The translations under genes and the position numbers were made by a program. Below, piece after piece: positions 1,656-55,100 of a stretch of 64,000 nucleotides of DNA. This stretch comes from Anagrus nilaparvatae. Lineage: Eukaryota > Arthropoda > Insecta > Hymenoptera > Mymaridae. How positions within the stretch are numbered: position 1 is the first letter of the stretch; every line of letters begins with the position of its first letter. The notes under the pieces were generated by a model. The model was not told where the DNA came from, did not search any database, and was given only the letters and a program-made list of their open reading frames with translations. The DNA lies in the NCBI GenBank assembly GCA_022575985.1, contig JAKSXM010000123.1, forward strand, positions 186,001 to 250,000. Direction: 5' to 3'.

Positions 1656-1978
1656 TCCTATTCCTTAGGATGGGCTTTTATCGGGGTATTAAAAGAAGTT
1701 GTTTAGTTTAAAAAGATTTAAAAATGAGAAAAGATATTCTATAAATCGTCTGTTTAACTTTAAAATAATATAAAATTTAATAATCCACAAATTTTACGAA
1801 AAAATAAATTAAAATTTTATTTAAAAAAAGTAAATTTCTTTTTATTTTCCGTCACCTTAACTAGGCCCCCACCATATTTCCACTTAGAAACCTCTACTAT
1901 AGTCTTAGTTCGGCGCTGGGTCTAATTCTGAAAAGCCATTTTATTATTTTGTATTTTTTTACCATCTCTTGTTTTTAG

Positions 1979-12754: not shown

Positions 12755-12759
12755 ATATA

Positions 12760-14581: not shown

Positions 14582-16403
14582 ATATACTATTTAAAATTAT
14601 TGTAAACATGTATATATTAAACGTATATATTTGTTTATATTTTTCTCGCAAGCGAAATGCATTCGCAAGTGTATATAAATGCATTTCTTGCATGTCAACG
14701 TATCTTTCTTACTATACAAAATATTCGAATTATGTAAAATATACTCTTAAAAATAATCGAAAAATAAAAATTTTATTTAAGATTTTTTTGTGGTAACTCT
14801 AAAACTCTAAAAATCTTTAATCGTTAATCATTTTTTAATCTTATAACGTCTTTTGAATCAAAAGGATCTTTCGATTTGGCTGATTTTTCAACTAAAATAG
14901 TTTTTTAGAATTTAAAAAAAATTGGATGTTATAAATAGCTTTCTAATCGCTTCATTTTCAAAAGTTACATGAAAATATTTCAGCTTTATTGTGTTTCAAA
15001 ACATAATAAATAAATTATTTTTTATAATTATAGATTATTCAATTTATCCAAAATGAAGAATATATCTTACACTTACGTTCCAACCAAAATCTCAACAAAA
15101 TCTGTACTAAACCTGTGCCTCCCACAAACTCAATACTTTTCCCATAAACTAAATCAACAACTATAAATATGACCCTTTCTACCAACAAAAAGACAATAAT
15201 ATTATATCACGTTATTAAAAAATTCTAAAACTTACACAGATATCAAATAGAAAAGTTATATTTTCATAAATGCTTACATCGTCATATATTTTAATAATAC
15301 ATAATAAAAAGTTATGAAAACATAGAAAAAGTAATAATGGTGCATATATAAAAATCACGCGTGTCATAGCGTGTAAACCCGTTTCTTATATTTGCTGACT
15401 AACACTTCTAAATATATTCACTAGACATACAGTGTATATTTTTAAAATTTCAAATAAAGTAAAATTATACACACTACTGCATATAATTTCTCAGATGTCG
15501 TTTAGTACTTTATTTAGTTGTTTTAAAACTTATAAGCACGTGCAATTTTATATATATGCGTGTTTTTAATGCATTTATAAAAAGTTTTTTTTTTTTTTTT
15601 AAATATAGCAATCCTAGAAAAATAAAAATATTCTTGATATTATTTAATTATTTTGTAATAATATATTATTTAATGCATAATATATTTATTATTACTAGAA
15701 GTTATACTTAGAATGTTGAGAGATAAAAAAGGAAATTTCAAATTATTGTTATTACAGTTTTTTTTGTATGTGTGTATCTGTGTAATCATCAAAATGGAAA
15801 GTATGGTATTTATTGGAAGTATGACTTTTTTTTATGTGATTCATAGATAAAGTAATAATAAAACCCATTTTTTTTAAATCATATGGTTAGTTGGTATTTT
15901 ATTGGAAAATTACTTTATTTTTTATCAATTTTTATTATGTGATTAGAGTTTGGAATTTTTAATTTTTTATTAGGGAAGTTTTTTTTTTAGTAAGTTATTT
16001 TAGTATAGATTTTGGGTGTATAAATATGTTTAAATTATGTGGTTTTGAAAAACTAAGCAATATTTATTTAGATTAAAAGTTTTTTAGGAAGTATCTATTT
16101 CTAAGATACTGGGAGGCTTCAAAAATTAAACTCATTTGTCAATGGGATAAATACTGTAAATGGGATAACAATACCAAAAAAAATATATTAATTAACTTTA
16201 TTTTTTTAGAAGATTCCCTAAATTCCATAATTGATTATTGGAATTCGATCCCTGCAGATATTTTCCACGCCTAATTTTAATTTTTAATTTTTAGAATTAT
16301 TCATTTGAAACGAACAAAAAATTTGCAAAAATAGGTTAAAAGATATGGAGAAGTACAATATGCAATATCTTCAAAGACTTTGTGGTGAAATTTATGGAAT
16401 TGT
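14582..16403. other. Gene-free AT-rich stretch
   Basis: I see no exon. It contains the short repeat at 14637-14715, a C-rich patch of medium complexity at 15050-15200 and many T/A runs. Confidence 0.5.
14637..14715. repeat. Short repeat related to 11552-11628
   Basis: It contains CTCGCAAGCGAAATGCATTC, which is partly self-complementary with the following AAATGCATTTCTTGC. It shares the order of conserved words with the copy at 11552. Confidence 0.45.
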
Positions 16404-25671: not shown

Positions 25672-27321
25672 TGGCCAATATTGGTCTAATTATTGGTTTA
25701 ATTATTGGTTAAGGGGTCAACAAAAAATTTTTCTTCTACAATATTCGAATAGCAAGGGAAAAATGAGCTCATTTTGAAAAAAAAATTTTTATTTTTGACC
25801 GAAAAATAAGCAAGTTATCATAATTTTAAGATTTTTTTAAAAATTGTCCAAAAATCCCTCACTGTAAAAAGTAACTTTCTTAGATTCACAAAAAAAATAG
25901 AATATTTTGGAAAAATGAGTAATTTTTCGAAAAAAAACGTAAATTTACTAAATTTAGTATATTCATTAAAATTTTGAGTATTTCCGATTTTTTTTGTAAA
26001 TTCACGAGAAAAATTGTTAATTTATAATTTTTTTTTCGAAAATTAACAAAAAATATTTGCTAATTTACAAATTTTTTTGTAAATTCACAAGAAAAAATCG
26101 AGAATTCTCGAATTCGTTGTTAATATACTAAATTTAGTAAATTTACGATTATTTTCGAAAATTTTCTATTTTTTTTTGTGAATATAAGAAAGTTACTTTT
26201 TACAATACAGTTTTAGGGTCATTATAAAATATTCTAACTTTAAATAACGATAACTCGCTTATTTGTCGGACAAAAATGAAATTTTTTTTTTTAAAACGTC
26301 AAACTTTTTTCCTGGATGTTTGAATATTTACAACAAAAAAACTTTTTATAAACAGAAATTATTTTTTTGGGCCAAAAACTACTCTAATGCATTTACAAAC
26401 TAAAGTAAGTTCTAAAGTAATTTTCTTGTCAGCGGCCAGAAAGCACGTATTTCCCGGCCGCTGCGCGACCGGAAAAGACGCGTTTTCTCGCCACTGACGA
26501 AGAAAAATTGTATACGACCCTTGTCCATAAATAAAGAATGAACCAAATCGCAGTTTACCAACCTCGGCTTCGCCTCGGATGTACTCCAGTCACAACACGG
26601 GATTGCGGTTGATTTTTTCCCCACTAATGAGGTTTGTTCCCCTATATGTTTTTTGGGTCGCCGATCACGAATTTTGGGGTCCCGAAGTCCGTGTAAGGGC
26701 GGAACACCCTTAAATTTGCAAATTCACCCTTTTAAGGGGTATTTTAACAATATTTTTAACAGGAGTTATTAATAATAATTTAAGCAGATTATAATAGGTT
26801 TTTTTGGCTTGCTAATCACGAATTTGAGGGTCCCAAGTGTGTAAAATTGATTAAGCACCCTTAAATTTGCAAATCAACCCCCCCTCCCGTGATTTGACTG
26901 GAGTAATGGTAATTTACGTGCGATTTGGACCATTCTTTACTTTTCTGGACACGGGATCGTAATATACTATTTCCAAAAAAAATAATTTTTGCATATAAAA
27001 AGTTATTTTGTTGTAAATATTCAAATAGCCAGGAAAAAATTCGACGATTTTTAAAAAAAAGTTTTTGTTTTTGATCGAAAAATAAGCGAGTTATCGTTTT
27101 TTAAAGTTAGAATATTGTATAATGACCCTAAACTGGGATTTTTGGACAATTTTTTAAAAAATCTTAAAATGATGATAACTTGCTTATTTTCCGGTCAAAT
27201 ATAAAAATTTTTTCTTCAAAATGAGCTCATTTTTCCCTGGCTATTCGAATATTGTAGAAGAAAAATTTTTTGTTGACCCCTTAACCAATAATTAAACCAA
27301 TAATTAGACCAATATTGGCCA
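25672..27321. mobile_element. Nested palindromic element with an ACTCCAGTCA element in its centre
   Basis: The outer ~85 bp at each end are almost perfect inverted copies (GGCCAATATTGGTCTAATTA inward, then GGTTAAGGGGTCAACAAAAA). Further pairs are 25690-25870 with 27140-27300, 26200-26370 with 26985-27140, and 26515-26575 with 26920-26975. The centre, 26581-26913, has the same TACTCCAGTCA/TGACTGGAGTA ends and GTTTTTTGGGTCGCC words as the foldback at 12760-14581. A further palindrome (25868-26215) lies inside the left arm. No protein-coding content. Confidence 0.75.
26428..26575. repeat. GC-rich segment repeated in inverted orientation at 27635-27775
   Basis: GTATTTCCCGGCCGCTGC, then GACGCGTTTTCTCGCCACTG and CATAAATAAAGAATGAACCA, ends at AAATCGCAGTTTACCA. 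The reverse complement of 27635-27775 gives the same order of words (GTATTTCCCAGACGCTGC, AAAGACGTGTTTT, AAATCGCAGTTTACCA). One copy lies inside the palindromic element and the other lies outside it. Confidence 0.6.
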
Positions 27322-31768: not shown

Positions 31769-31776
31769 GCTTCTGC
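31769..31776. repeat. Left 8-bp target-site duplication of the P element
   Basis: GCTTCTGC directly precedes the left terminal repeat and is repeated exactly at 38807-38814. Eight bp is the target duplication length of P-type transposons. Confidence 0.9.
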
Positions 31777-31806
31777 CAGGATGAACTTAACAAGGTGGAG
31801 TATCTT
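31777..31806 (+). repeat. Left terminal inverted repeat of the P element
   Basis: It is identical over 30 bases to the reverse complement of 38777-38806; the sequences diverge at base 31. Confidence 0.92.
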
Positions 31807-32109
31807 TTATGTTAACTGTATGTATTGCATTGGATTACAATTTGAGTAAACTTACCCAAACTCACCACGAGGCGGCAGTATAATTAGCCGGTTATTCTGA
31901 CGGTTATATACGTGTGAATAATAAGTTATAAAGCACATGTTTTTGTTTATACATTTTTTAATAAAGTATATACCATATTATAATAATATGAGCAATTATA
32001 CAGTAATTTTTGTTTTTTATTATGTTTTAAAATTTTTGATAAGTGTATGATCATCTAATTATTAAGCAATAATTTTATGTTTTTACTATTTAAATAATAA
32101 TACGAAAAA

Positions 32110-35100
32110 ATGAAAGAAGTTTGTGCCGTTCTTAATTGTGACTCAAAGAAAAAAACTCATCAAAGTTATTCTTTCTTTAGTATTCCTAATCCAAAATTAT
32201 CAATTTGGTCTAGGATTTTAAAGAGTAACTTAAAAAAGACTTCTTTAGTCTGCCAAAAGCATTTTAATGATGATGCATTCCAGCCTGATCATTACCATGC
32301 AAAAACTGCTGATGGAACTGTGCTACTAAATGTAAGTTTTTTTTTTAAATAATTAATCCTTACTAGGGTGATTAAACCAATTAATTAAGTTTTAATAGCT
32401 TTATTAATTATTTAAAAATATTTATTTTCACATTTAAATCATTGTTTTATAAAATACAAGTACCAAATATAGAAATAGTAGAAAAATTATTAAAGTGAAA
32501 AGTTATTGCATAGTGTATTTGTATATTTATAGTGTAATAAGTATAATAAAATTTTAGTTCTTTTTATATTAATCAGTTTTAAATAAAGTTCATCTGATTG
32601 TCATCGAGTACTGAAATGCCATGGTTAACTATTTTAAGCTGTACAAAAAGTGGTATATCAAGTTAGAATTATTTTAGCTCATCTGAATTTCATCGAATAC
32701 TAATATATTATTAAATTTAACAAAAGTTAATGATATAATAGTATTCGATGAAATTTAGATCAGCTTAAATCATTAAAACTTAATATACTACTATTCGTAT
32801 AACTCAAAATTGTTAAACATGGTAATCCAGTACTCGATGAATTACAAGGGCTCAAAATTGTTGTACCAAAATTTCAATTATCAAAAACAGTTAAAAATAG
32901 TAAGCTAGTAGTGAATATGTACTACAGATGAACCCCAATTATCAATGTTTACTATATAAAGCAATAAGCAAAGATCCTCTGAAATGAAGAACAAGTTAAC
33001 TTGTCAAACTTAAGGTACTTTGATGCTGGATAAGTTGTAACAGTTCATATATAATATGTCTTCTGTAAGTTCCAAAATTCTCATAAAACAATAAAAAATT
33101 ATGCCAGTACAAAAAAAAGGACAATTAATAAAGTTGATTGTTTCTTTGCAAAAATTGGACTTTAAAATTTAACTTTTAAATTAAGAAAATAAGGATTTGT
33201 ATCAAAAGCAACATAAAACTAACTCACATAATGAAGTGAAAAGAATTAGACTTTTTGGTTCTTAGTTTCTTATAATAAAGTGAAAAATATAACTTAGTAT
33301 GAGTTTTTTTTAACAATATCTCTAGGCTATATGTTACTTTTTTTATTATTATTTTTTTTTAATGAGACTTCTAATAATTAAAACTTACTTTTTAATTTAA
33401 TTTAATTTCATATTTTAACAAATTTTTAAAAAAATATGAAATTTTTTATTTCAATATTTATAAATAAAATAGTGGTCACTAATTGGTGATTCATTGGTCA
33501 TTGATTGGGGTCTGTGGTCACTAATTGGTGAAATGAGAATTTTTTCTTTTAATTTAAATTAAAATAAAATATAACTTAATTTTTTACAATATACTAGCGT
33601 TTTTCTAGTTAATCTACTATCAAATTTTCAAAAATAAAAAAGAAATAGAAACTATTCATTAAAAATGTTTATTTATTTACACTTAAATTTGCTCTTTTTG
33701 AACTTTGGTCACTAACTGGTTCAATCACCCTATTTATTCCATTCGTAAAATATACTATTTAAAAATGCTGTATTTTTATTCAATAATATTTGTGATAGGT
33801 TCCTAAGAAAAGAAAGCGTCTGAAGAAGGATGCTGTTCCAATAGCGAATGAAGATACTGACAATAATGTACGTTTAAGTGATTGTGTGGAAAATGAAAAT
33901 TTAGTGACTATATTTACTACCCCGAGTAGAAAGGAAAAAGAAAAATTAAAATCACCAAAGAAAAGCGATGCTGATGATACTATGGTATTTATTTAATAAG
34001 TGAATAATTTAAACTTTGCCTTTAGCTAGTTATTAATTTTTTGTACAGAATTTTTTGGAAGAAAACTTAATGCAAGACTTATTGTCATTTAATGAAGATA
34101 AATTTATTCAAATTACTGCTACTCCTACTACTACTCCTACTGCAAGAAAAGAATTATTTCCACGGCTAGAATTCTCAACCCCATCGACAGAACCTGTAAT
34201 TTTGATTAATCTAATAAATGAATTTTTTATATGTATTACACTTTTACTATATTTTTAGTTGGAAAACAGTACTTGCAGCAACATTGATTCATTATTAAAT
34301 GATAGCGTAATGGAATGCTCCGATTCTGACCATGTTGAAAATCAAAATATTCACAATAATACCATTAATGATGCTGAAACTGAAAAATCGAAATATTTAA
34401 AATTAATTGAAAACGTATATAATGGGAAGATTGTTATACAATTACCCAGCAATGAATGGAAGTTTATCAAAGCAAGAAAAAATCAAATTAATTTTTGCAG
34501 GGAGCATGTATACCAAGAAAAGCATTCAACTTTTGTAAACATTGAGTTTAGTAAGCAGGTTTGTAAATATGTATACTGTTTTACTAATTATTGTTTAGTA
34601 AACATATTTTATTTATTAACAAATATGAATATTTTACAGTTACGTCTTAATGAAGAAGGACACGCATTAATGTTAAGGCATAAACTTTTACCTGAAAATT
34701 GTAATATTTCCCCTTTAGAATTACCAACAGACAAGGATAGCTTAGAGCTAATGTTACGCAATATAGATACATATAGACTTTGCATGGGTGGTCCTACTTT
34801 GAATACATATGCTAACGTTGATTTACGTTGTGTCAGAAAAGATCCGCCAGTTTGGAGACATATTAAGTGCTCTTTGGTGATGGATCATGGAGGTCAAGTA
34901 TGTACAAAATGTCTTTCACTGCATAAACTGTTTGGACAGAAAATTAAGCGTACCCAGAAAAAACAAATAGAAAAAACTTTATTGCTGAGAAGAAAAAATA
35001 CAATAAGATTAAATCAATTTAAAAGGGCGGAATCGATTTACGTTCCAGAAAATAGTTCTCCCAGAACTAAAGACAAATACAAACTACTGAAAAATCAAAG

Positions 35101-38100
35101 AAATTTATTTAAGAAAATAATACGTAAGAGGGAAATTAAAATTTTGAAATTAAATAAACAACTTGACAATTTACAAGATGAGATGAGTCGTCAGGTCAAT
35201 AACAATGAACTGACAATAAACCTTGATGAGTTACCGGTAAATCAGGTAATTATTAATAAATTGGTACTTTTTCAGTTAAAAAAAATTCATAATAATTTGT
35301 TTGTTTGAACATTTAGATCAGCCATCAACAGTGCATTTTCATTACATCATTACAACATTCATACTAATATCATTTAATCATTTTAACTTTATCATTACAT
35401 CATCATCGCTTTAAATTCATTTCCTCGTTCATTGCTTATTACATATTGAAATAATATTATAAAAACAAAATTATTTTATTTCATTTATTTCAGAGATTTG
35501 TTATCAAACAAATGATTAAAAATTGCCATGCAAAAAATAAAGGTCAAAGATATTCTTACGATTGGTTACTCTTGTGTATGCTGCTTTATATTAGAGGGCC
35601 AACAAGCTACAAATGGCTTCGCGATGAAGAGATTTTGCCTTTACCATGTAAATCTATGCTTCTAAAATATCTTGAAAAATCAAATGTAGGTATTGGATTT
35701 GATACAAGTTTTTTTGAACTGCTTGGTAAAAAGTACGTAAATTTAAATCAACAATTCAAAAATGCAAACCATGGCACTTTGTCATGCGATGAAGCGAAAG
35801 TAAAGAAGTCTCTGGACGTAAATTTAGAAAAAATGACTTTCGATGGCTTAGCACAGTATGACATCAGCGATGAATATCTTAACCATCCTAATGAAATAAT
35901 TGTAAATAACAAAGAATTTTTAAAGGCTGCAAACGAAAATAAGTCTGTCAAATCAAATCAGGCAGATCATATTCTGGTTTTTATGTTCTCGTCCTTAACC
36001 TGCTCCTTCCATCAACCCATAGGAATCTTCGCAGCTGCAGGAGCTACCTCGCACCACATCCTTGCTTGTTTAGTTATATCAGCTATTCTAGCTGTTGAAA
36101 AAGCTGGAGGTCGAATCCACGCTTTTGTGTCTGATGGAGCAAAACCAAACAGGGGAACATGGAAAATTTTTGGGTTGAAAGCTGTAGTTGGCAAGGAAAT
36201 TATTTGCAGTTTTGAAAACCCAGCATATTCAAAAGAAAATGATAAACGTACTGGTTCAGAATTGAAAAATATACCCCAAATTTTTGTACTTTCAGATGTT
36301 CCGCATTTATTTAAATGCATAAGGAATAGGTTACTTAATAGTAAGGAATTGCAGGTTTGATTTTTTATTTAAAACAATTAAAAATATTATTGAAATTAAA
36401 TAAAATTAATGTATTAGAATAAATTTTCATTTTTTATGTTAATAATTTTTTGAAGATCGGCAAGGATATAGTCAAATGGAAATATTATCAACATTTATAT
36501 GCTGCTGACACTAAAAGAGAAGACGGAAAACGCGTGTGTCCAAAATTATCACATAATCATGTTAACCCTGAAAATTATGTCCGAATGCGTGTTTACGTTA
36601 TGGCACAAGTGAATGCTTACTATTAATGTTAATATTAAATTTGAAAATTTTTATAGTAAATATAAAAAAAAAATTTTTTTTAGTTATTCAGCATGAACGT
36701 GGCTACAGGCATGGAGTTTTATAAGAACTCTGCGGCTGAGTGTTCAAAAAATTTCATAGGCTGTGAAGCCACTATAGAGTTTACAAAAAAAATGAACGAG
36801 CTATTTGATCTTTTGAACAACCACGAAAAAGGAAAAGCAATTACATCCACGGATTGTCATGCTTATAAAGTAATTTTTTTATTTATTTTTAATTTTTTAA
36901 AACCCTAACAAAATAAATAATTTACCATATGATATCTAGAGACTTGAATATTACTTAACATGGTTGGATAATTGGGAAAAAGAAACTAAAGAAGCCATTA
37001 AAGAATTGGAAAAACATAGAGATCAACGTTTAAAAGTAGAAAAAAAAAAACATATTGTAACAAAACAAAAACATACGAAATTAATTAAGGATATAAGACA
37101 GTCGTATGATAAAAAAATAAGGAAAGAACTGAAAGACAATCAATATTTAGAAACCCGCACTGAAGCTGCAATTCGAGCTGCAATTCAAAAGTCAACCATT
37201 GAAGTTAATAAACTTAAAAATGAGAAAGAAAAAAGGCTAAAAGCGGCAAGACGAAAACGAACAGCAGAAAAGGAGGTAGAGAAGAAAAATGAAGGCATCA
37301 TAAAAAAATTTTACAAAAACAGAATCGACGATCGTGCAAAACTGTTTTTGAGTGACTCCACAGCTGTTGGATTACGCATGACCATAAAGAGCACGTTGGA
37401 ATTAAGTAAAGCCTTGATATCGGAAGAAATAGTCAGTTTTGTTCTTACTAGAAAAATTAACCAGGATTGCCTGGAGGTAAGCTATTTTTTAAAAAGGTTA
37501 AATTTATAAATAGTTACAAAATTCATTCCGTTATTTCAGCGCTTTTTTGGTAACATACGCCGGGCTGGGGGGCAAAACGATCATCCGGATCTTTGCACAG
37601 CGCTACAGTTGTACCATCTGCTATCTGTATACAAACTTCTGAGGCCTCCAAAGTTTGGAAACTGTAGGGCACCTCCTGCAGCTATAGAATCAAATCAAGG
37701 ACCAGGCATTTCCTTTGAGGAATTTCTAAATGCATATAAAGAAAAAAAGAAGGAAGAAAAAACCCATAAAGCTACTCATATTAAAAAATTGAAAGAACAA
37801 ATAAAAGACTGTGTCAAAACTGAAGAATGGAAATCAGAAGAGATCCTTTATAGTTATGAATTGATGTACCCAGAAGATGTAGATCAAATAATATATTCAA
37901 ACTGCGGTTTCATTTGCAGAAAAATGTTAGGGAAAAAATTTGTAAAATCTTGCACAAAATGTCAAGAATCGTTTGCATCTGTAGACGAAAATGAAATTTT
38001 TAATATATCTTTTTTGATACAGCTTCGCAATAAGGGTAAGTTAATATACCCCGATTTTAATTTTTTTAGACTAATAAAAGGCATTGATAAATTGTTTGAA

Positions 38101-38325
38101 AAGTACATATCAAAAGAAAATAACGCGTACGAGAATGTTGTTAAGGATATTGTAGCTGGGGAGATAGAATTATTTTTCCCCTGTGAAAATCATAAAGTTC
38201 AAGTCCTTGCTGAAATAATATATTATTACATTCTTCTTAATATGTGGTTTTTCCGCAAGTACGAACGAAAAATTAAAAACAGCGAGACAAATAAATATAG
38301 AAAATTTTCAAAATTATCTGATTGA
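32110..38325 (+). CDS. THAP-domain P element transposase, ten exons, about 1327 aa
   Basis: The exons are 32110-32331, 33799-33984, 34049-34195, 34259-34558, 34640-35245, 35494-36354, 36456-36608, 36684-36869, 36940-37476 and 37540-38325. All introns are phase 0 with GT-AG ends. Residues 1-90 form a THAP zinc finger (C5, C10, C48, H51, closing RLKKDAVP), the DNA-binding domain that recognises the transposon ends. A basic PKKRKRLKK is a likely nuclear signal. The middle part (exons 5-9) matches the P-type RNase H-like core with its inserted GTP-binding region: SCDEAKVKK, then VSDGAKPNRGTW, SDVPHLFKCIRN, and finally NQDCLERFFG. Likely catalytic acids are D586, D701 and E1066 (inference from motif position). 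Residues ~897-1012 are a Lys/Glu-rich insert. The C-terminus has paired Cys (CTKCQ). It is longer than the usual 750-900 aa, mainly from linkers and the insert. Intron 4 (81 bp) is stop-free, so it could be retained. Confidence 0.9.
32366..33730. mobile_element. TA-flanked element filling intron 1 of the transposase gene
   Basis: The ends are GGGTGATTAAACCAATTAAT and the complement of GGGTGATTGAACCAGTTAGT, each bounded by TA, as in Tc1/mariner-type insertions. Without it intron 1 would be about 100 bp, like the other introns of the gene. Near the right end GGTCACTAATTGGTGA occurs twice. There is no ORF, so it is non-autonomous. Confidence 0.6.
32585..32850. repeat. Imperfect palindrome inside the intron 1 element
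   Basis: CATCTGATTGTCATCGAGTA at the left pairs with TACTCGATGAATTACAAG at the right. Nearer the centre, CATCTGAATTTCATCGAATAC pairs with GTATTCGATGAAATTTAGATC. The arms are about 125 bp around a short centre. It is transcribed with the transposase pre-mRNA and could fold. Confidence 0.6.
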
Positions 38326-38408
38326 TACCAAATATATATGTATACCTTTTATTGACAAATGTTTAGCTAAAAAATTACCTAAGGTATTTAAAACATTTGT
38401 CTGTACCA

Positions 38409-38414
38409 AATAAA
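38409..38414 (+). terminator. Poly(A) signal of the P element transposase gene
   Basis: AATAAA about 84 bp after the stop codon. Another AATAAA-type word occurs near 38485. Confidence 0.5.
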
Positions 38415-38776
38415 AAAATTGTATTTATATATATAAATTGTATGCATTGTATGTATATATATATATTATACTTATATATAAGTAAATAAAAATAGAATGT
38501 CTAAATGTAAATGTGTATACAAAAATATATGTACGCTGTAAAAATAAAAAAATTTATGCATAAACATAATAAACAAATCTTTTTACTAAATAATTTATTT
38601 GCATGCACTAAAAAAAATATAATATTGCAATTCAGATAAAACAGCGCCGCTCTCTTATATATAATTCTGTACTTTAAAACGCCTGTGTAGGAAAAGTGGG
38701 GAACGCCTGGCTATCTTAAGCGGCATCTATAAATTTTAAGCGTAAGATGTTCAAATTGTGTACCCTAAAAATAAGT

Positions 38777-38806
38777 AAGATACTCCACCTTGTTAAGTTC
38801 ATCCTG
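38777..38806 (-). repeat. Right terminal inverted repeat of the P element
   Basis: It is the exact complement of the left terminal repeat over 30 bases. Confidence 0.92.
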
Positions 38807-38814
38807 GCTTCTGC
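38807..38814. repeat. Right 8-bp target-site duplication of the P element
   Basis: GCTTCTGC, identical to 31769-31776. Confidence 0.9.
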
Positions 38815-40160: not shown

Positions 40161-43100
40161 ATGGGAGCTTCTGCCTCTTCGAGCCTTGCATCAGTTGGAG
40201 GAGACTCGTTACAGGCAGCCAGGCTCTCATCCTCTGGAAGTCCTGATCCATTAGGAATTATAATAAGGTATTTGTATAAATTTGTATATTTATTTTATTT
40301 TATTTTAATTTAATATTTTGCAAATAAAATATTTTAAAAGGGAGAGAAAAAAGAGAGTTACTGGTTTTGCAACATTAAGAAAAAAATTTATAAGGAGGCG
40401 TCGCTCCTCAAAAGCTTGTGATCATGGACGAATAATACGTGAACTAGTTTCCACATGGAGTCCTTTAGAAGCAGGGGCATTGCTAGAAGAATATGAAGCT
40501 CTTGCAGCATTAAAAGATCTCCATGTTCAAGCAGAACTAGCAAGACCTCCAGCAGCGACTTTCAAACAGGATCTTTCAACACTATATGATTATAAATACT
40601 GTACAGATGTAGATCTTGTTTATAGAGGAGCTTGCTTTCCTGTACATCGAGCTATTTTGTCGGCAAGATGTCCTTATTTCAGGGATTTACTTGCTGGTTG
40701 TCCTGGTAATTAATTTACTTAATTGCACTTTATTTATTTTATTGCAAAACTAAAAAATTACAAAAGAATATAATTTTAATACTTTAAATTTTAGGATATG
40801 GGGCTCGAATTTGTTTGGAGCTACGAAGTCACAATTTAGAAGTTCCAATGTTTTCAGCTTTGTTACGCTATCTGTATACTGGTGATGTATGTCCTCATGA
40901 CACATCAATGGATGCAAATTTATTAAGGCGATTAGGAGATGAATTTGGCAATCCAAATCCATTAGAACATGATCTCAAATATTTATTGGAAACCGGTAAT
41001 TATGCAGATGCTGCATTAGTATTCACATCTGATAATGACTACCAAAGGCCTGACAGTGGAAGTTCAGAATATGGATTTCGACCAAAGTTAGAACTGCCAT
41101 GTCACAAATCAATATTATCAGCAAGATCACCTTTCTTCAGAAATTTAATTCAAAGGAGAACGAGGTCTGGAGAAGATCATACAGAAAGAGCATTACACAT
41201 ATTAACTAGAATAGTTCTAGATGAATCAGTTATACCCAAACGATATGCACATGTATTATTACATGCTGTTTATTTAGATACTGTTGACTTATCTCTTATT
41301 CTAAGAGGTAACGGTTGCGGTAATAATTCGGGTAGTTTAGGAGAGGTAATATGATTTGATTATGCTATTAAAAGAATTCTGATAATAAGTATATATATTT
41401 ATTTAGGTACAAGCTTTAACTCACACTGGTCGAGTAAGACCTAGTGCATTAGAAGAAGCTATGGAATTATATCAAATAGGTCGTTTTATTGATTTAGATA
41501 TTTTATCACAAGGCTGTGAAGATCTAATTTTAGAATGGCTTACATTAGATTCTCTTCCTACAGTGCTAAGGTAAAATTAAATCAAACATTCCTTTTTAAT
41601 TTGAATTCAAAAATTTTAATTATACATTTTTTTTAGGTGGAGTAGTCAACCTCATGGATCAGCATGGGTTCACAGACAAGCGTTACACTTTCTTAGAGAA
41701 GAATTTCAACCAGTTGCTTCTTCACCTATTTTGCATCTATTAGATCATTCACACTTATCAAATGTTTTAAAAAGTCATTTTTTACAAGCTAGTGAACTTG
41801 AGGTACTTCAGGCTGTATTAAAATGGGGAGAAAATGAATTAATACGTCGCATGGAAGATAGGGAACCAAATTTACTTAGTCACACAGTTCATTCAGTAGC
41901 AAGAAAAGGTGTAAAGAAACGGGACCTTAGTGATATTGAACTTCGTGAAATTCTTAGTGAACTTTTACCTCTTGTGAGAATGGATCATGTTCTTCCACCA
42001 AATAACGAAATACTCGCTCAGGTTAATTTTAATTTTATTTATTTTTTTAATGAAAAATAAAATTTTCATAATGATATAAAAATTTTTTTTTAGGCTATAA
42101 GGAGAGGGTTAGTATCAACTCCACCAAGTCATATGATAGGAGATGAAAGAGAAAATTTAAGGATAAATGCATGGATAAGAGGAGGGAAGAAAAATGGCTT
42201 ATTTGTTAGACCAAGACTTTTCATGCCATATTATGAAGAAATAAAGGTAAACATTTAAAGTCTAATATAAACATTTTTTTTACAGTCTGTGTACTAACGG
42301 TTATTTTCAATACTACTTTCAGGTTTTAGTTGAAGAACAAACTATTCAAGAAGCAGAATTAGTAAGGTTACGAAGAGCTCGTTATATTCCAGATATTCCA
42401 GACACACTATATATGGTGGATGAAAAGCCTCGTGTTATGGGTGCCGCTGGAGTTGATATTTTAGCAGCAGCAATCCCAGGTAACATTATTCTCTGAAAAT
42501 TAAAATTAAATTTTTATAATATATGTATTAATAAAAAATAATTTAAAATAAAAAATAAAATTTTTAGTACCTGATACTGCTACAATGTCAGCTATGTTAA
42601 AACGTGAACAAAAATTACGACAATCTCCAAGTTGTCAGCGAGCTATTAGTTTACCATTATCATCCCGGCATGAAATTAATCGACAGCTTAGATTAAGGGT
42701 CGTCAGAGAATTTAATTTACCAGATGCTGTCGCTGATCTGCTTGAAGTGAGTAATAGAATTATGATTATTCTTTACAATTCTTTCGTAATTTACTTTGAT
42801 TTAAATCATAAATACATTTTTTATAAAAGGCAAAGACAAATTGGGGTTTCTAAACTACTTTACAATTTTTTATGATACGTAATTGTTTAAATATTTTATA
42901 AAAATTATCGTGGCTTAATTTTAATTTATTATTATTAATGTTATTAATAATTTTAACATCATTTTAGCAAAAATCAGATTTGCTACTATTAAAAATAGGC
43001 CATCTTTATAAATAAATATAAAATAATCTTTTTTACTATTTTATGTTAATATTATTTACAAAAGCACTTATTTATTGAAATTCATTTATCGAACTTACTT

Positions 43101-46100
43101 AAATCTACATGCTTACTAAATGCTAATTAAATAAATATAATAAATATAATTTATACATATAAATATAATTTTTACTGCGTCTTATAAATTTTTCCAGGAA
43201 TAAAAAATTTTATTATGATTATAGTTTCATAAAAGTTTACATATTTAATGCTACTACATCAAGAATAAAAATCATAAATACATTGTTTTTTATCATTCTA
43301 ATCAAAAATTTTATTTCAAAATCTAGATTTTTTTTTTATAAATGAATTTAAAAAAGTTAATTAACACAAAAGTAAATCCTTAGTGCTTATGTAGAAAATC
43401 CAGAATTTTATTAAATTAGTATGTATGTTTAAAGTGCTATAACTTCTAAATGCATGTATTAATCAATATATGTAATTACAAAAACAAAGTCTTTTATTTG
43501 TCTTTAAAAAAAAAATTCTTGATGAAATTTTTCTTACAGCATACTTATATCAATAAACGCGGTGAAAGTTGAGCTTCTTTTAAAAAATGAAAAAAATATT
43601 ACAAGTTTTTTTTTATCCAAACAGAATGGTAACATCTACTTATATTAAAATAATGCTTATAAGAATGTATATTTTTGCATAAGTATAAAAGACGATTTAC
43701 TGAATTAGCCACTTTTGATTGACGAATGTTTGTAAGACGTGAAGTAATTTATCATCATAATTTTTACCATTTCCCATGTTTATAAAAACTTCTCGACTTT
43801 CAAAATTATTTACATCGGGTGCAGTTCCTGGTATCGCTTTTATGACTTTTACCATCATGATACATTGAGGAAATTTTAACGGTGCAGATTCTTTTAATAT
43901 TTTATCAAAACTTTCTCTTGAAAATTTTTTTACATCAACTTTTACAGATTTCAAAAAATCTATAAATGTTTCATAATATAAAGTTATTAAATCATTAAGA
44001 TGATTATCAATTACATCTTTTTTAGCGCTGGAAATTAAAAAAAATATTAAATCATTTACTCCGTAATCATAAGAACATAATTGAAAATCAATAATTTTCA
44101 TTGATTCAATTTTTCCGTTACTATTATGTTTAAAAAGCATATTATTAACCCAAAAATCATTGTGCGCAAATGTTTTCCACTTTTCTTCTAATTTTAAGTT
44201 GTGTCTCATAATAGCTTCATGTTCTAAGGTTTTGTAGACCATTTCCATGTAAGGCTGAGCTCCTTTCATATGCTTTAAATCTTCAGCTGCTTTGTTAATC
44301 ATTCCAGTCACAAAATTAATTAAAACTTCATTTACAGTTCTAGGAACCATTCCAGGATTAAAAATTTCTGGGAATTTATTTGGATTATTTTCTCTGTATC
44401 CAATCACAAGAGCATGGAGTTTAGCTAATTCTCTAACTCCAAATTCCATATGCTCTTTATCCATACCCATAATTCGGTCTTGGCTTGAATATCCAGAGTA
44501 ATTTAAATTTTCCATAACTATTGCTGCCTGACTATCAAATTGATCTAGCCCATTTATTTTATTTAAGTTTATTCGACCGCCATAAAAATGAGGTACTAGT
44601 TTTGTTAAATTATCATTATCAATTCCATTTTCTAACTGAAATTTAAGAAAAGTTGGTGCAATTTTGGAATAAAAATATATTTCTTTCCTAAATGTTGAAG
44701 GACAGCTGAATAAGTCAAACAAATATTCAGATTTTGGAGGCATCTTACACACAAGATGAAGTGTTTCTGGCTTATTGTCTTTTAATACATTGGCATCAAT
44801 ACTTATTATTAGGCTCCCAAAATTTTCTCCTGGGTCTGTCAAGTTTTTCCATGTAGAATTCTTAACTTTTAACGAAGGTCCTAAAGTTTGTTGTAACAAA
44901 ATTTCTAAATCTTGCAGTGGCAAGTCTTCGTCAAATGCTGGCATTGCTGCTGAAAAACTGTATACAAGAATAATACGATAAAGTGAATTTTCTCAAAATA
45001 ACATTTATTAATTCGAATATTAAAAAAAAATATTTTTTACTATTTTGGAGTCTAAAATGAGTATAATCTGAGAAAATTAACTATAAAATATAGCTAATGA
45101 AAAAAAAAAACCCAGGGATCGAATTTGGCTACCAATAGTAAGACTTCAGTAGTAACAATTAAGTTATTGAAGTATTGTTTTGTTTAAATGTCACTTTTAC
45201 TTTTAGAAATCTTTTTTTTTTATATCAATTTTCAAATTTTCTCTTCAAGTCATTTTTTCCAGGTAAAAGAATTTTATTTCTAATTTTATGCACAATTTTT
45301 TATTATTATTTCAACATAATTGACCTTCCAAGAACCAAGTAAAAAATAAACTAGATTTGTTTTAAAGATTGGGAAATGAAGTAATATTTTATTACTTGCA
45401 AGCAGTTAAATTCTAATAATTTTAATTGATTTTTATGAAATATTCATTTTTTTTTAAATTTTATATAATAAATAATTAAATAAACGTTACATGGTAAAGG
45501 AGACTAGGGCAAAATAACAACATTATTTTAATTTTAATAAATTTGGTACACATTTTTGTATCGTGGACTGTTATTTTCTATAAAAGTTCATACTATGAGA
45601 CAAATTAATCCAGTTACATGGATTTCCATGTAGATAAAAGAATAAAATTTCATAAGATAAAAATAATAATTAAAAATATGAGAACAACCTTCTTTTCTAT
45701 ATAATCTGCCAGAAAAAACACAATAATCTGTTATAGTAAGGATTAGAAATATTTTACATTTTTTATATTAAATTTAAAATCAATAAGCTATAAATGTGTC
45801 TTATGTTATCTTATGTCTTAATGAAAGGTGAGGTCGACTTGTTTATAATTATTCAATTCAGAATTATAGAGTTTATAAAATAATTTATTTTAATTTGTTT
45901 ATTTTTAATTAAATCATTTTAATTTATTATTCAAATCTATATGTTTATGGAATCAAGATCTATTGGTTATATGTGCTAGGCGAAATTCAGTCGCAAAAAT
46001 ACAAGTATTGCCTGAAATTCAAGAAAACAATTATTTATTAAAGGTCAAGAAAAAGCAAATTTTAAAAAAATAAGTAAATTGAAACCCTTGGCTCCGTCTC

Positions 46101-49100
46101 GGATTTTATTTCACGTATATAATATATCTGCAAAAATTTATTTTCACCCCTTTTGTAAGAAAAAATACTATTTTTATAAACCCCTATTGTTTACTCATTT
46201 TTTTTAGCCTTTTGTTTGGTTGATTTGATTTTTCTATTTTTAACCCTTTATCACACTACTAAAAGTAGATCCTGTAATTGTACTAAAAACATGGTTTTTT
46301 GCCAAAATTGTATATAAATTTTCAAAAAAAATTTACTAATTGTAACGAAAAAATCAAACATTCTTGATTTTTTTTTCTGAAATCACAACTTTTAAATTCT
46401 CAAAAAAAAAAGAAGTCGCAAATTTTTGTTTATTTCGTAAATTTTTTATCGAGTATAATAAACTATTTTTTTTGTAAAATTCAGAGATGTGCTTTTAACA
46501 GCGCGTTTACAGGGCTTATCTTAGAGGGTACAAGCGATAATAAAACTTTTTTGATTAATAATTTTGAGCTAAAAAATAAACTGAGAAAATGATCCTTTTG
46601 AGAAAAAAAATGATTTTTGATTCTTTACAAAAGAAATTATTTTACAGGAAAATTATTTCTTTTTACGCCAAAAATCATTTTTTCTTTAATGTCAAAAGGA
46701 TTCCTTTCGCAGGAAATAGAAAATGGGAATTTCGGGGCTGATTTTAAGTTCCTTTTCCCTCAATAAGATCTTAAATTATTTTGGCTAGTATTCTACTTGA
46801 GTATATTAGCTGTTTTTTTATAGTCCAATCTTAGTAAAAAAATAAAATAAAAGAAACAGAATTTCTGAGACCCCTTTCCTTTCGGATGAAAATTTTGAAA
46901 AATTCGGACATATTTTTTGGATACTTATAAATTTTATTATTGATCACTTTTTTGGATAAATTTTTGATTTTTTTTTAAATGCTATACAAAAAAATTAAAA
47001 TTTAAATATTTCTGAAATTTCATTGGTTTTTAGTTATAACGATAGCCAATTTTAGTTAAAAAAAAATTTATTTTCTAAGGAGTTTTAGAAATATCTAAAA
47101 TTTTTTGAAAAAAATCCAAAAATTTCCCAAAGAATTTTTTAATAATAAAATAATTAATTTTAATAATAATAATAATAATTAAATAATTTAATTTAAATAA
47201 TTTAAAAAATTTAATAATAATTAAATTTTAATAATAATAATTTTTTCGAAAATTAAGTCAGAATTTTCAAAGATTTTCGCCCTGAACAAAAAACCTGTCC
47301 CCAAAAATTTTCTTTTTTCATATTAATTTCTTTACTAAAGAATTTAAATTAAAAAAATAAACTATCAATTATTTATATTTCGATTTACTTTCTTATTAGA
47401 ATTTAAAATGAAAATTTAAATCAGGATACTCGTTTTATAAAAAAAACACTTTTACAAACATTATAGATTAAAATTAATAAATCAAGCGAAAAATAACGTG
47501 TAGGAGCGAGTGGTACATAACTTTTGATACCGAGATTGAAAAGGATATAAACATTAATAAGTTTAATAATAAATAAATTTAATATTATTTTTTAACGGGT
47601 GAAAGATTTCTAAAAGTTTTATGGTGGGAATTGGCATTTTTTTAATGCGTTTTCTTTTAAATATTTAAAGTGATTGTTAAAATTATTTAATACAATGTTT
47701 TTTATTGTAAAATTTAATGTGCAGAGAAATTTTTTAAAATTTATTTTTCTTGGAATTATTTTATTGTTCGTAATTACAAGTTTAAGCTAAAACATTGTAA
47801 TTTAAATTCATTTTTTCTCAAAAAGGTTTTAAAAAAAGAAAAAAACTTATGAAATGCAAAACTCACAATTATAAAATAAAATTATCGTTAAACTTACCAA
47901 ATAAGGAGAAAAATAAAATTAATAAATAATATCAGGTATGCTAGTGAAGGTTTGTCTAAAAAGAAAATGATTAATTCAATAAAAAAAAATAACCGTTCAA
48001 TAACCGTATAGACTAACGATGAAAACTCGACTGTCAAGTAAACTAGACAGACTTTTTTGACCCTCCTCAACAATTTTCCCCACTCATTTTTCACATAATA
48101 AATCTTTTAACTTTGATGCTTTATTAAATGAAAATTAATATTTAACATTTTTTCCATGTGAAAATTTTACAGTTTTAATTAAAATGAAAAGTAAGAAAAA
48201 TTAAAAATTATTTTTATTTATAATTAATGAAATTTAATTACATAAATAATACATTTGAAATTTTAATTATAATTAATGGTTATACATTGATTTCTTTTTT
48301 TATGAATACCGAAACCATTTTAGCGAGGTTTACAAACAAAAAATTAGTTTATTTAAAATATTTATTGCAAATTTACTAAAACATTGATAGAATTCATAAT
48401 TAGCTTAATTGCTTAGATTTTTGATTACAATGTGAAATTGGACAGCATTTATAAAAAAAAATAAGATTCTTAAAATATTTTAGTAGTCATCAAATTAGGC
48501 TTTTGTGGGATTGAAAATTGGCTCTATAAGAACCCAAATATTTTGGGAATCACATTTTTATACAAATAATTTAAATTTCAGCCTAAGGTTTCTAAAATAA
48601 TAACATTTTTCGTTGTTTTTTAAAGTGACAAAAATGTTTAAAAAATTACTTTCTAATAATTTAAAATTACATTATTTGGTAAGAGAGGCAAAGGCAGTTT
48701 TATTAAACTTACGTTGATAAATTCAGATTTTTAATTTCGCCATTTTTCAGCCTCTTAAAAGTCATAAATTTTGCTTTACAATTTTAACTATTTATAAAAA
48801 TATGTATAAAAAAATATTTATTTAATAAGCCAATTTTGTTTAACAAATGTTTGTAATACGTGAATTAATTTTTCATCATAATTTTTACCTTTTTCAATAC
48901 TTAAAAACTCTTCTTCGCTTTTTACACTGTTTACATCAGGCGCTGTTCCCGGTGTAGCTTTTATAACTTGTACCATCATGATACACTGTGAAAATTTTAA
49001 TGGCGCTGATTCTTTTAAAATTTTATCAAAATTTTCTCTTGAAAATTTTTTTACATCAATTTTTACAGATTTCAAAAAATCTATAAATGTTTCATAATAT

Positions 49101-52100
49101 AAAGTTATTAAATCATTGAGATGATTATCAATTACATCTTTTTTGGCGCTAGATATTAAAAAAAATATTAAGTCTTTAACTCCGTAATCATAAAAAGTTA
49201 ATTGAAAATCAACAATTTTCATTGAATTTATTTTTCCACTGTTATCATATTTAAAAAGCATATTATTAACCCAAAAATCATTGTGAATTAATGTTTTCCA
49301 ATTTTCTTCACCTGTTTCTTTGTGTCTCATAATAACATCGTGTTCTAAAGTTTTGCGGATCATTTCCATGTAAGGTTGAGCTTCTTTCATATTTTTTAAA
49401 TCTTGTACTGCGTTATTTATCATTCCACCGACACATTTCATAGCCATTTCATTTGCAGTTGGAATGAAAACAGGCTTGAAAATTTCTTCGAATTCATTTG
49501 GATTCTTTTCTTTGTATGCAATCACAAGAGCATGAAGTTTAGCTAATTCCTTAACTCCAAATTCCATGTGTTCTCTATCCATACCTAAAACTCTGTCTGG
49601 ACTTGAGTATCCAGAAAAATTTAAGTTTTCCATTATTATGGCTGCTTGGCTGTCAAATTGTTCTAAACCATTCAGACTCATTCTACCCCCATAAAACTGA
49701 GGAACTAATTTTATTAAATTATCTTTATCAATTCCATTTTCTAATTGAAATTTTAAAAAAATTGGAGAAATTTTTGAATAAAAGTAAATTTCTTTAAAAA
49801 ATGATATTGGACTGTTAAATAAATTTAATAAATAATCTGAATCAGGAGGCATTTTACATACAAGATGAAGTGTTTCTGGCTTATTGTCTTTTAATACATT
49901 GGCATCAATACTTATTATTAAACTTCCAAAATTTTCTCCTGGATCTGTTAAATTTTTCCATGTTGTACTTTTTACTTTAATAGAAGGGCCTAATGTTTCT
50001 TGCAGCAAACTTTCTAAATCATGCAGTGGCAAAGGTTCATTAGATTCCGGCATTGTTAAAAAACCTAAAAAAAGTAAAAAATTATTACAATAATTGAATA
50101 TTTCATTTAAAAAAAATTTTATTGAATATTTTTATAGTTATTATTTTTTTTTCTCCAATAATTGAGTTGGCCAATAAAAATTCTGAATCTATAATCTGAT
50201 AATGATATCCCAAAAGAATTTGTCACGCTAAATACGCCGTCATTGGCTATTTTTGGTAATGTTGTAAGGATTATGAGACACTTTTAATCTAAAACCACAG
50301 AAATTTACGTGTGTTTTCAGAAACTTTATTTGATTCATTATTTGATTCTCGGTCCTAGTTATAAATTAGATTTTAAAAATATCGTTTTCGGTTGTTTTGA
50401 GAGGATTTGGAAATATTCTAACCTAACGGGCTTATGATAACTTCCGAATTTCCTGAATTTTATTAATTTTTCTAAAATATTTTTTGGAAGTGATTTTAAG
50501 TTACAAAATACAAAATCTAAGGCTATTTACCACTTTCTGCAAGGATATTTTAATCTGGCACCCAAAAATATCTTTGACACGAAATTCTAAATTTACTAAA
50601 TTCAATTTTTTTAAGGAATTTCTAAAATATTTTAAATTCAAGCCTTTAAAGCTAGGATATTTCAAAATTATGGCATGATAGCCTGAGAAAGCAACTAAGG
50701 TTATTGGGAATCCAAAAGCTTTTCGTATGACACGAACCTCGATAACCAAATATGAAAAAAATTAAAGATTCTGAAAAAATACCAAAATTTGTCTCAAAAT
50801 CCTGATGCATCATACCCAATAATTGCGTTAATACAATCTGATTACAAAGTTCACAATTTCTATTTCTATTTCATGGCCAACACAGTAAATATTTAAAAAA
50901 TTTTAATACTTGTAAGTACGCTCTACAATAAATTACTTAATAAATTTCAATTAAACTGTTTATTTTTGCACTAAAAAAAAAAAATTACACGTTTTCGATA
51001 AATTCAAATTGACAATAAAACTATTCCGATAAAAAATAATTATTTTTTTTTTCACGGTCATCTTTTATCAGAAAAGTCAATTAAAATATTTATATATTAC
51101 AATATATATTATTGGTCATTAAATTATAATAAATGTCGTATATAAATATTAAAAAATTTTTAAAAAGCTGATTCAACATTGTCATTAGATTTCGTGAGTT
51201 CATTTAAGAATAATACTTTGTATAGTCTATAGGAAACAAAATTTGCATCTTCACTCTGATTAATATTTATAAATTGATTTATATTTTGTTTTTCACATAA
51301 ATTATTTATAAAATATTACTAAAAAAATATTTTTTAAAGAATTCCTTTAAAAAATATTTTTATGATATTTTTATTCCATGATTAAAATTATTAGAAAAAA
51401 AATTAGTTTGCCAAGTTTGTTGGTTCTTGTATAGCGTTGAAAAATTTGGTAACTGCAATGTAGAAATGAGAGCGATTGAAATATCATTTATTTATTATTG
51501 ATAATAAATATAATTTATTTTATAATGATTTATAGTCTAAATAGTTTAATTATGTGTTATAACTTGTATTATGAATTAAAACAGAGAAAATCTTGGTTTA
51601 TGATAAATTGATTTATATACGGTCTTATAAGGGTTTATCATGAATTGGATTCAGATGAATACTTAATTATGCAAGTGAAAGATTGATGTAAAGGGGGGAG
51701 CAGATTTTTTTTTATAGATTAGATTCAACCAGAATTAAATTTACCAAAAAAACTTATCAAAAAAAAAAAAAAAAAAAATTTATCAAAACCTATAGAATAA
51801 GTTTTTTTTTTAATAATCAGCTAATGCATAATTTTATTTGTGCAGTTACATTAAAAATTTTAACTTTTTGCGAAAAAGAAAGTGTCGTAAGTGTCACCTT
51901 TCAAATGCCGTAAACCTAAAATTTTTTATCACTATTTTTCTCATAAATGTAGCATATTCATCAAATGGACATTTTTGGCTAAAAATTACCAATTTTAAAA
52001 TTGCTGCCAAATTCGTAATTTCTGACAAAAAAGGGTTTTATGTGTCTCGAAAATTTTCTACAAGCTTTAAGTTTCCAAAAATTCTTTACTTGTCTCATTT

Positions 52101-55100
52101 CCTTGAGTCATTTTTATGAAATGACTCTTCAAAGTTAACATTAAAAATGAGCCTTTTTTAAAAAATCATAAAATTGGGACTCCGATTTAAAATTATCATA
52201 TCTAATCAACAAATAATTGAAAAAGGTAAAGTAAAGAAGTTTTGGAAACTTGAAGCTTGTACAAATTTTTTCAGACCTATAAAACTCATTTTCGTCAAAA
52301 ATTACAAATTTGGTAGCAATTTAAAAATTGGTCATTTTTAACCAAAAATGACCATTCGGTTAATTGGCTATAGTGTTGAGAGAATTAATGATAAAAAATT
52401 GCAGTTAACGGCGTTTGAAAGGTGATACTTACAACAACAAATTAAATGAGACCAATCAGAAGAGTTTTGGTTAACTTTTGAGGTTTTAGCGTTTCATTGA
52501 AATTTCCCAAAAAACTCTATTCCATAACATTGAGCCCTACATTTCTAGGCCTAGAAGGCCCTTTGGAATGAACGGAGGGCAGTCGGCATATTTTTTCAAC
52601 ATAATAAACTCATCCATAACCATTTGGTACAATTTGGTGTTCCAAATGTATTGAACTCCCCTTGTAAGTTAAAATTATACACAATTTATGTAACTAATAA
52701 CTTTTTAATTGGTTATAATCATTTTAAATATCTAATTTTGAGGTTATGTTTTTAGTGCAGTGTAGCTAGTTAAAAAATATCCAACAAACATGATTACGTG
52801 CTGGTTTACAGATGGCCTTACGTTTCAATAAAAAAAAAGTGCAAAATTTTCCCTTACCTTCCTCATCTTTTAATCCTTTTTCTTAACGCTTTATGATTAT
52901 GTTAATATCAAAATAATCATTACATCTTTATTATTTTATCTTTACCGTATAAAAATAATAACTTTGAAAAAAAAAGATAAAAATAAAAAGAAAAAAATTA
53001 TTAAATATTGTTTTTACACTCCACCGCTTCCGTTAGATGTATCATGTTTTATTATCACAGTTAAGCGAGCCGAGCTTTTTTTTTAAATTTTCAAAATATC
53101 GTCATGATAAAAATTATGTTATGCCTACTTTTTTTGATTATTATTCAAAAATACATTTTCGAAAATAGTAAAATTTAAAAATATTAATGGCATTACAGAG
53201 ATCTATAATTACCGTCATTTTCTATGGAGAATCTAGTAAATTTGAGCAAATTGGTTCCTGATTCCCTGAAGCCAAAAAGCAATTTAAAAAATTTTTCTCT
53301 TGTAAAAAACTTTCTTTTTAGTTTCTCTATACCGCTGTTGTCTTCGATTTTTGGTATTAGATCATTTTTTTTGGTCCAATCAAACAGCATCAAATATACA
53401 CGAACTTATGAATTATTATTAAATAAAAAAAAATTATCGAATATAAAATATTGAAGACGATACCAGTGTAGAGGAACTAAAAAGATAATTTTCTGCAAGA
53501 GAAAAATTTTTTAAATCGCTTTTTGGCTTCAGGAAATCAGGAACCAATTAACCCAAATTTACTAGATTCTCCGCATAAAAAGCTGGTAATTACAGAGCTG
53601 ATTAAGTATCTACTTTTCTCTAAATTTTATTTAACTAAATAATTTAATTATTTATTTAAGTTTTTATTATCTATTTGCTAAAATAAAATAGATATTTTTA
53701 AAAGGAAATTATTGTTATCTTTAATTTATTAAAAATATTTTGTGTAAAAATTTTTGTAGTTATTATATAAATGATAAGGAGTAGGTAAAATTTATGAATA
53801 TAAAATTTTTTTATTTATTTGGCTAGAAAAATTTTCCTTGTATTTTATTTTCTAATGTCGGAATTATTAATTTTTAAAAAATTATAAAACTTATTTTTTT
53901 GTTAAAGTAAAAATATTAAGTGTTTTAGGAAACTGAAAATTTGATATACATAAAAATCTAGTTAATTCAAACTCTAAATATTTAGTACTTTGGAGTAAAA
54001 ATTTTGAATTTAATCTCTTTTTTAATTCACGAGAAATTACTAATCTTAAATTCATAAGCTAATTTTCAAATATTTAGTTTGGTCATTAAATATTTTCTAA
54101 CTTGTTTAATTTAAAGTGTTAATGACAATTTAAATATCCCGGATATTAAGTAATTCAGATCAGAGCCCAGTACTCTCCCTTTGTCTAATTAATCCGGGTT
54201 AGCAGGGATCAAGTACAATTATTATTTTAATATTTTACTGTTAAGGTTAAATAAATTATTATTTAACCTTAACATAGTAAATTTTTTTAAGGTATTTAGT
54301 GTCTGTAAGACTCTTCATATTTGTAGTAAGTGATTTCTAGTAATGTCTAGTTATTTTCATAGTTTTTATTAAATTGTTAATTATTGAAGTAGGCAAATGT
54401 AAAAAACAAATTGGAAATGTAAAATTTAGGTATTTATTTATCATATTATCAAGTTTCATTAACTTGTGTCATCTTTATCATACTTTTTATAACGTCCAAA
54501 GGTGGTCCCCACGAGAGCAGTTAAACTGCCTATTTTCTTTTCTTAATAAAAAAAATTACATATATACAAAGTTGCTAAAAAAAGCTTTTTCAGTTTTTTA
54601 ATAGTTTTATAAATTTCATTCATTTCTGTTATCTTAAGTTTACACACACTAAACACCTTAACATGGGAAATGTTCATAGGGGAGGGTGACCGAAAAAGTT
54701 CCTTGAAATAAGGTGGGGGCGGGGGTTCCATGGACTTAGAATATTTTCGATTTAAAGACTTGTTATAATTTCGGTTCTAGGACTTATCATGATTAGGGAG
54801 TGTAAATTAAAACTGTCATAAGTGAACATGTTCCATGCTCGTTGGTTGTGTGAATACACAAACAAGTTATTTTTCGTATATCCCTTTTTTACTTTCAAGA
54901 ATTTATTTTAAGAAATTCCAAAATTTTTTTGCTTATATTTTAGTAAGTAAACACCCTAGAAATTTTGCCCATGAGTTTTCATAACAATAAAATAAATTTT
55001 TTTTATAAATAATATCAAAATCTATTTTGTAAATTTTTTACGTAGAAAAAAAAATTATGAAATACTTATGCAGTAAAAAATTATTACATAAAAAAATCAT

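Follow-up and report, generated by a model that had tools for sequence, protein, structure and literature searches.

Much of the knowledge of the P-element mechanism has been obtained from one fly element (compare PMC7776569). The P element of Drosophila melanogaster is 2.9 kb in length, with four coding ORFs and a transposase of 87 kDa (available text of PMC7776569). Anopheles mosquitoes already provide examples of complete P elements, with ends of 27-31 bp. The AgaP elements of Anopheles gambiae measure 4,178-7,545 bp, carry terminal inverted repeats (TIRs) of 27-31 bp, make 8-bp duplications and encode a THAP transposase; three reference copies have intact frames of 876-895 aa, and the remaining reference copies contain stops or frame shifts (PMC1562414, in the part available). 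Outside insects, the P-like Pdre2/zfTHAP9 of zebrafish has a THAP transposase, 8-bp duplications and ends of 13 bp, and the accessible part of PMC10983969 reports excision, with no integration detected. A survey that included 73 arthropod genomes also reports P-superfamily sequences from every species it covered, a statement about presence and not intactness (PMC6327564, in part). The first-pass annotation of the present locus had regarded intact P elements as rare outside flies; set beside the arthropod survey and the excision-competent zebrafish transposase, this view is in part upheld and in part overstated.

The window, that is, the whole 64-kb stretch of Anagrus nilaparvatae DNA that was analysed, contains what is best read as an autonomous-looking DNA transposon of the P superfamily, inserted in the wasp genome upstream of a BTB/BACK-domain gene (rough probability 0.88). 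Membership of the P superfamily is solid as judged from sequence, and the initial view of the locus as a true insertion of a P element with intact coding capacity is upheld by its ends, duplication, open frame and domains. By description, AgaP resembles the wasp element in size range, end length, 8-bp duplications and THAP transposase, and zebrafish Pdre2/zfTHAP9 resembles it in its transposase and duplications but differs in its shorter ends. Drosophila P shares with it the 8-bp duplications, the same domains, and the catalytic and most GTP-binding residues (6p5a/6pe2). If a hymenopteran carries an intact and divergent copy complete with ends, it would provide a second full P system, in which the generality of GTP use and of P-type end recognition could be tested, and a candidate for gene-transfer tools in wasps.

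Ends, target site and gene model

The element is 7,030 bp long (31777-38806) and has 28.0% G+C, the window having 25.1%. The identical 30-bp ends and 8-bp duplication claimed at first pass were both recovered: the two ends are a perfect inversion, and GCTTCTGC lies directly on both sides in identical form (Table 1). The inverted repeat as detected spans 32 bp, consisting of the 30-bp end plus GC/GC, which is part of the duplication. When the window was scanned with the end 20-mer allowing up to 3 mismatches, 2 places were found (0.00 expected from 100 shuffles), with no third copy within the 64 kb. Likewise, blastn of the element against the window gave, apart from the self-match, the two ends and an internal palindrome, no more than four matches, each 33-46 columns long.

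Table 1. Positions of the P element's features within the window
Feature	Position	Strand	Remarks
Left 8-bp target-site duplication GCTTCTGC	31769..31776	.	same letters at 38807-38814
Left terminal inverted repeat, 30 bp	31777..31806	+	100% complementary to 38777-38806
Exon 1	32110..32331	+	most of THAP zinc-finger domain
Nested TA-flanked insert, intron 1	32364..33732	.	1,365 bp between TA pair (1.37 kb)
Exon 2	33799..33984	+	end of THAP domain and basic stretch
Exon 3	34049..34195	+	little support from relatives
Exon 4	34259..34558	+	frame and alignment to relatives
Exon 5	34640..35245	+	Cys-containing region common with tick proteins, then Lys/Leu-rich stretch
Exon 6	35494..36354	+	RNase H N-terminal part (D586, D701), start of GTP-binding domain
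Exon 7	36456..36608	+	GTP-binding insertion domain
Exon 8	36684..36869	+	GTP-binding insertion domain
Exon 9	36940..37476	+	Lys-rich ~110-residue insertion modelled as helix, then RNase H to candidate catalytic Glu E1066
Exon 10	37540..38325	+	remaining RNase H C-terminal match, C-terminal region with conserved Cys/His, stop codon
Right terminal inverted repeat, 30 bp	38777..38806	-	perfect inverse of left end
Right 8-bp target-site duplication GCTTCTGC	38807..38814	.	same letters at 31769-31776

The P type of these ends, also asserted earlier from the motifs CA-GATGAA and AAGGTGG, was examined against 23 bases of the 31-bp Drosophila P end (PMC11368186, available text), with which the wasp end shares CA.GATGAA and AAGGTGG. 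In an alignment anchored at base 1 the wasp end scored 29, and the maximum among 5,370 other CA-starting 30-mers of the window on both strands was 27; the ends are assigned to the P type because this score tops every control. No subterminal repeats above chance were found in the first 60 bp inside either end, where an inverted 9-mer common to both sides was equalled in 494 of 5,000 random pairs. AT-rich 9- to 11-mers common to both sides occur further inside, at most as candidate subterminal repeats.

The 14-bp target site matches the Drosophila motif ATRGTCCGGACWAT (PMC10299278, in part) at 8 of 14 positions, a level of at least 8 being reached by 1.8% of the 14-mers of the window; the matches are the four outer positions on each side, with 0 of the 6 central ones. 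The duplication has 5 G/C letters out of 8 (at least 5 in 5.2% of 8-mers). Since one site was compared, and post hoc, these figures are only a hint of target preference. Downstream on the same strand lie frames with two BTB matches and one BACK match (40309-42060), which we take to be BTBD7-like. Regions 5' of genes are enriched in P elements in Anopheles, as is said of D. melanogaster (PMC1562414, available text), and one wasp insertion 5' of a gene proves nothing on this point.

The predicted gene is split into ten exons, all phase 0 (lengths divisible by three) and with GT-AG introns between them, and encodes 1,327 aa; AgaP has three exons (four in AgaP3) and shorter proteins (see above; PMC1562414, in part). 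The ten-exon frame without stops or frameshifts that the annotation had proposed was thus found again, the terminal stop being the only one in the predicted codons. Exon G+C amounts to 33% against 10-22% in the introns, which measure 1,467 nt (intron 1) and 63-248 nt (the other eight). Alignment with tick and other P-like proteins crosses junctions 1-2, 4-5, 5-6, 6-7, 7-8 and 9-10; exons 2-3 have little backing from relatives beyond their open frame. Stops in the exon frame interrupt eight of the nine introns. The exception is the 81-nt intron 4 (27 codons), whose retention was considered and rejected because the aligned relatives show no 27 extra residues there; it is therefore spliced in the model.

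Predicted transposase

Four P-type Pfam domains lie above their curated cut-offs in the predicted protein, namely THAP, the TNP-like RNase H-N, the GTP-binding insertion domain and RNase H-C, in keeping with the THAP plus RNase H-like/GTP-binding transposase and the catalytic motifs discussed below. The THAP (C2CH) match, PF05485, covers residues 5-89 with C5, C10, C48 and H51; it spans the exon 1-2 junction and rises from 38.8 bits in the exon-1 frame alone to 41.1 bits in the joined protein. The RNase H fold is split by the GTP-binding insertion (PF21787, PF21788 and PF21789). The P-element HTH model PF12017 found no match in the wasp protein at E<=1, and in a relative (P0126) it scored 18.8 bits, below the cut-off of 23. 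The exon-6 model starts with helices, mostly of low to moderate confidence, and the Lys/Leu-rich stretch of exon 5 presumably sits where P transposases have their coiled coil.

The candidates for the DDE triad, D586, D701 and E1066, stand in catalytic motifs. E1066 aligns with Drosophila E531, and D586 and D701 are taken by us, from the Pfam domain, to correspond to the first two Drosophila catalytic Asp. The Drosophila P transposase was the only PDB sequence matched at E<=1 (2.7e-17), and the three alignable pieces of it, taken from the alignment to the wasp protein, are 28-46% identical. In a Foldseek search with the exon-6 model, the best folds were 6pe2 and 6p5a (E 1.8e-12 and 2.0e-12), at a TM-score of 0.46 and rmsd of 10.7 for a model built with seven aligned sequences and having a mean pLDDT of 66. 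Six of the seven GTP contacts of the GTP-binding domain that were compared (K385, V401, S409, F443, D444 and N447) are identical and K400 is replaced by Arg, in an alignment of five of the six returned proteins (P0004 left out) and with the contact list of PMC7776569 as available. The further contact D528 is also identical in the alignment to the Drosophila transposase. At position 379, which we add to the published list, the wasp protein has Gly.

Most likely, the product of the gene is a THAP-RNase H transposase, which would bind the element's ends. This protein would pair the ends with GTP as cofactor, excise the element and join it to its target with an 8-bp stagger; we infer these reaction steps and the role of GTP from Drosophila P biochemistry.

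Relatives, extra residues and possible transfer

Two transposase searches, one of which scored only the 7,986 candidates that had most words in common with the query, returned four and two proteins. The named ones come from ticks: P0125 (LOC144148165) of Haemaphysalis longicornis, the nearest named transposase, with 35% identity over 96% of residues 285-885, and P0001 (LOC144113650) of Amblyomma americanum. Whole-protein BLAST between the wasp protein and P0125 gave 29% identity over 920 columns and 36% over 310. The 90% cluster of P0125 stands for 32 member sequences, which may be many copies in ticks, or isoforms or repeated records. Judged from the proteins, the tick sequences and P0126 share with the wasp transposase the THAP, RNase H-N and GTP-binding domains, a stretch linking THAP to RNase H, and a C-terminus with conserved Cys/His. 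The tick-type relatives differ in being only 1,030-1,087 aa long, and P0001 is without the stretch bearing the catalytic Glu.

A further difference is an insertion of ~110 residues that follows the GTP-binding domain and precedes the last catalytic segment; it is missing from P0125 and P0126 (five-protein alignment as above). Together with the nested insert in intron 1, it is a feature absent from the first-pass annotation. This Lys-rich stretch of exon 9 looks coding from its sequence. The possibility that it is an overlooked intron was rejected: when its 357 nt were shuffled base by base, the frame stayed open in only 1 of 20,000 trials, and exon 9 read in its two alternative frames has 18 and 19 stops. 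Single-sequence AlphaFold modelled residues 2 to 137 of the exon as one helix (exon mean pLDDT 87). A long helical arm formed by the insertion is accordingly plausible as a model, short of proven because Lys-rich sequence is easily modelled as helix.

It is very improbable that the locus is a domesticated THAP9-like host gene keeping its ends by chance. Its open frame would suit such a gene, and human THAP9 is a precedent for one retained and enzymatically active; nevertheless human THAP9 is described without flanking inverted repeats (PMC7776569, available text), whereas the wasp locus has 30-bp ends that match perfectly, with the 8-bp duplication identical on both sides. In addition, neither named search hit (2 of 6) is a wasp protein, in searches that reach only relatives sharing short words.

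In an 8-row tree including all six returned proteins (alignment A2; midpoint root, for drawing only), the wasp transposase, P0126 and the two tick proteins grouped together (100/99), apart from the Drosophila pieces, which occupy 25% of the columns of their row, and from the long branches P0002, P0003 and P0004. No report of a wasp-tick P branch was found in the open-licence literature among the matches listed. This clade apart from Drosophila P, with ticks as the two named relatives, and the low neutral decay described below would suit a recent horizontal arrival with another arthropod as its source, comparable to the D. melanogaster P invasion, which is compatible with an autonomous-looking insertion. 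We nonetheless consider such an arrival unlikely, as an identity of ~35% at best falls well short of demonstrating recent transfer and fits old divergence equally well, the G+C of the element (28%) is near that of the window (25%), and protein collections sample transposons patchily. The wasp copy opens the tick-wasp branch of the family to tests of horizontal transfer. A bolder reading makes the locus a member of a separate P subfamily of ticks and wasps, alive and still moving in a parasitoid wasp, with a transposase enlarged by a helical arm and possibly spread between arthropods by parasitism or shared hosts; it is speculative and, in our view, unlikely.

No relatives were found in viral contigs, either with P0125 (4 pattern matches) or with alignment A1, built from three of the six returned proteins (107 pattern matches), or among the 43 pattern matches in GTDB prokaryote contigs. 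One viral contig of 49.6 kb contains 19 bases of the P end (L001:15-33), which was judged to be chance; over the 1,031 bases examined, the likeness does not extend at all to the left and extends by a single base to the right.

Age, nested insert and other features of the window

Nonsense codons number 0 in 3,981 coding sites, which bounds neutral decay at <=1.3-1.8% at 95% (kappa 1-3), counting single-base nonsense changes only and presuming no selection on the copy since its frame was last selected. The identical ends and duplication agree with low decay and are too short to sharpen the bound. As far as its sequence indicates, insertion of the copy was thus probably a fairly recent event in evolutionary terms.

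Intron 1 carries a nested insert whose inverted ends, TAGGGTGATT(A/G)AACCA(A/G)TTA at 32364 and 33732, are alike at 18 of 20 bases, TA included. The pair scored 26.6 against a shuffle maximum of 15.1, and 0 of 100 dinucleotide shuffles were as good, under a null, set up once the pair was already known, that scanned only TA-starting inverted pairs. Without the insert and one TA, intron 1 is 100 nt long. A 240-bp palindrome (81%) lies inside it at 32601-32840, and three GGTCACTAA(T/C)TGGT repeats lie toward its right end; no second copy of its ends was found within the window. From its sequence, we infer a TA-targeting, mariner-like, non-autonomous element that inserted itself into the P element. 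Such an event suggests that the P element, in this copy or an ancestral one, had already been in place for some time when it was struck. The recent or ongoing activity proposed at first pass is therefore retained only as a bound on age: low decay speaks for recency, and the nested insert suggests some residence.

The nested insert might also impair splicing. This bears on a sub-case of the autonomous-looking insertion, and compatible with it, namely an intact but now silent copy, inserted not long ago, of a family no longer mobile because it is repressed or its splicing is damaged. We regard this as a serious possibility, though we lean slightly against it: the 1.37-kb insert occupies the intron between the two THAP-coding exons and a single pair of ends occurs within the window, but frame, splice-site dinucleotides, ends and duplication are all undamaged.

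Elsewhere in the window, long palindromes (73-85% self-complementary) occur at 1-535, 25728-26339, 51883-52436 and 53199-53599; they look like foldback/MITE-type elements, and parts of some recur in others of the set or elsewhere in the window. A block of direct and inverted repeats extends over 12756-14586, its longest inverted pair covering 733 columns at 94%. A single frame of 564 residues (1909-3603) has an F-box near its start. Two ecdysteroid-kinase-like frames, 43697-44992 (the one of the two run against Pfam) and 48818-50131 (minus strand), share 82% DNA identity over 1,268 columns and are probably a local duplication, to judge from this likeness. The five best matches of the single-frame EcKL-like protein at 48818-50131, among 120 of 161 listed, point to a chalcidoid wasp as the probable host, so far as one gene can show: they are 57-63% identical and come from the chalcidoid genera Trichomalopsis, Phymastichus, Ceratosolen, Copidosoma and Trichogramma.
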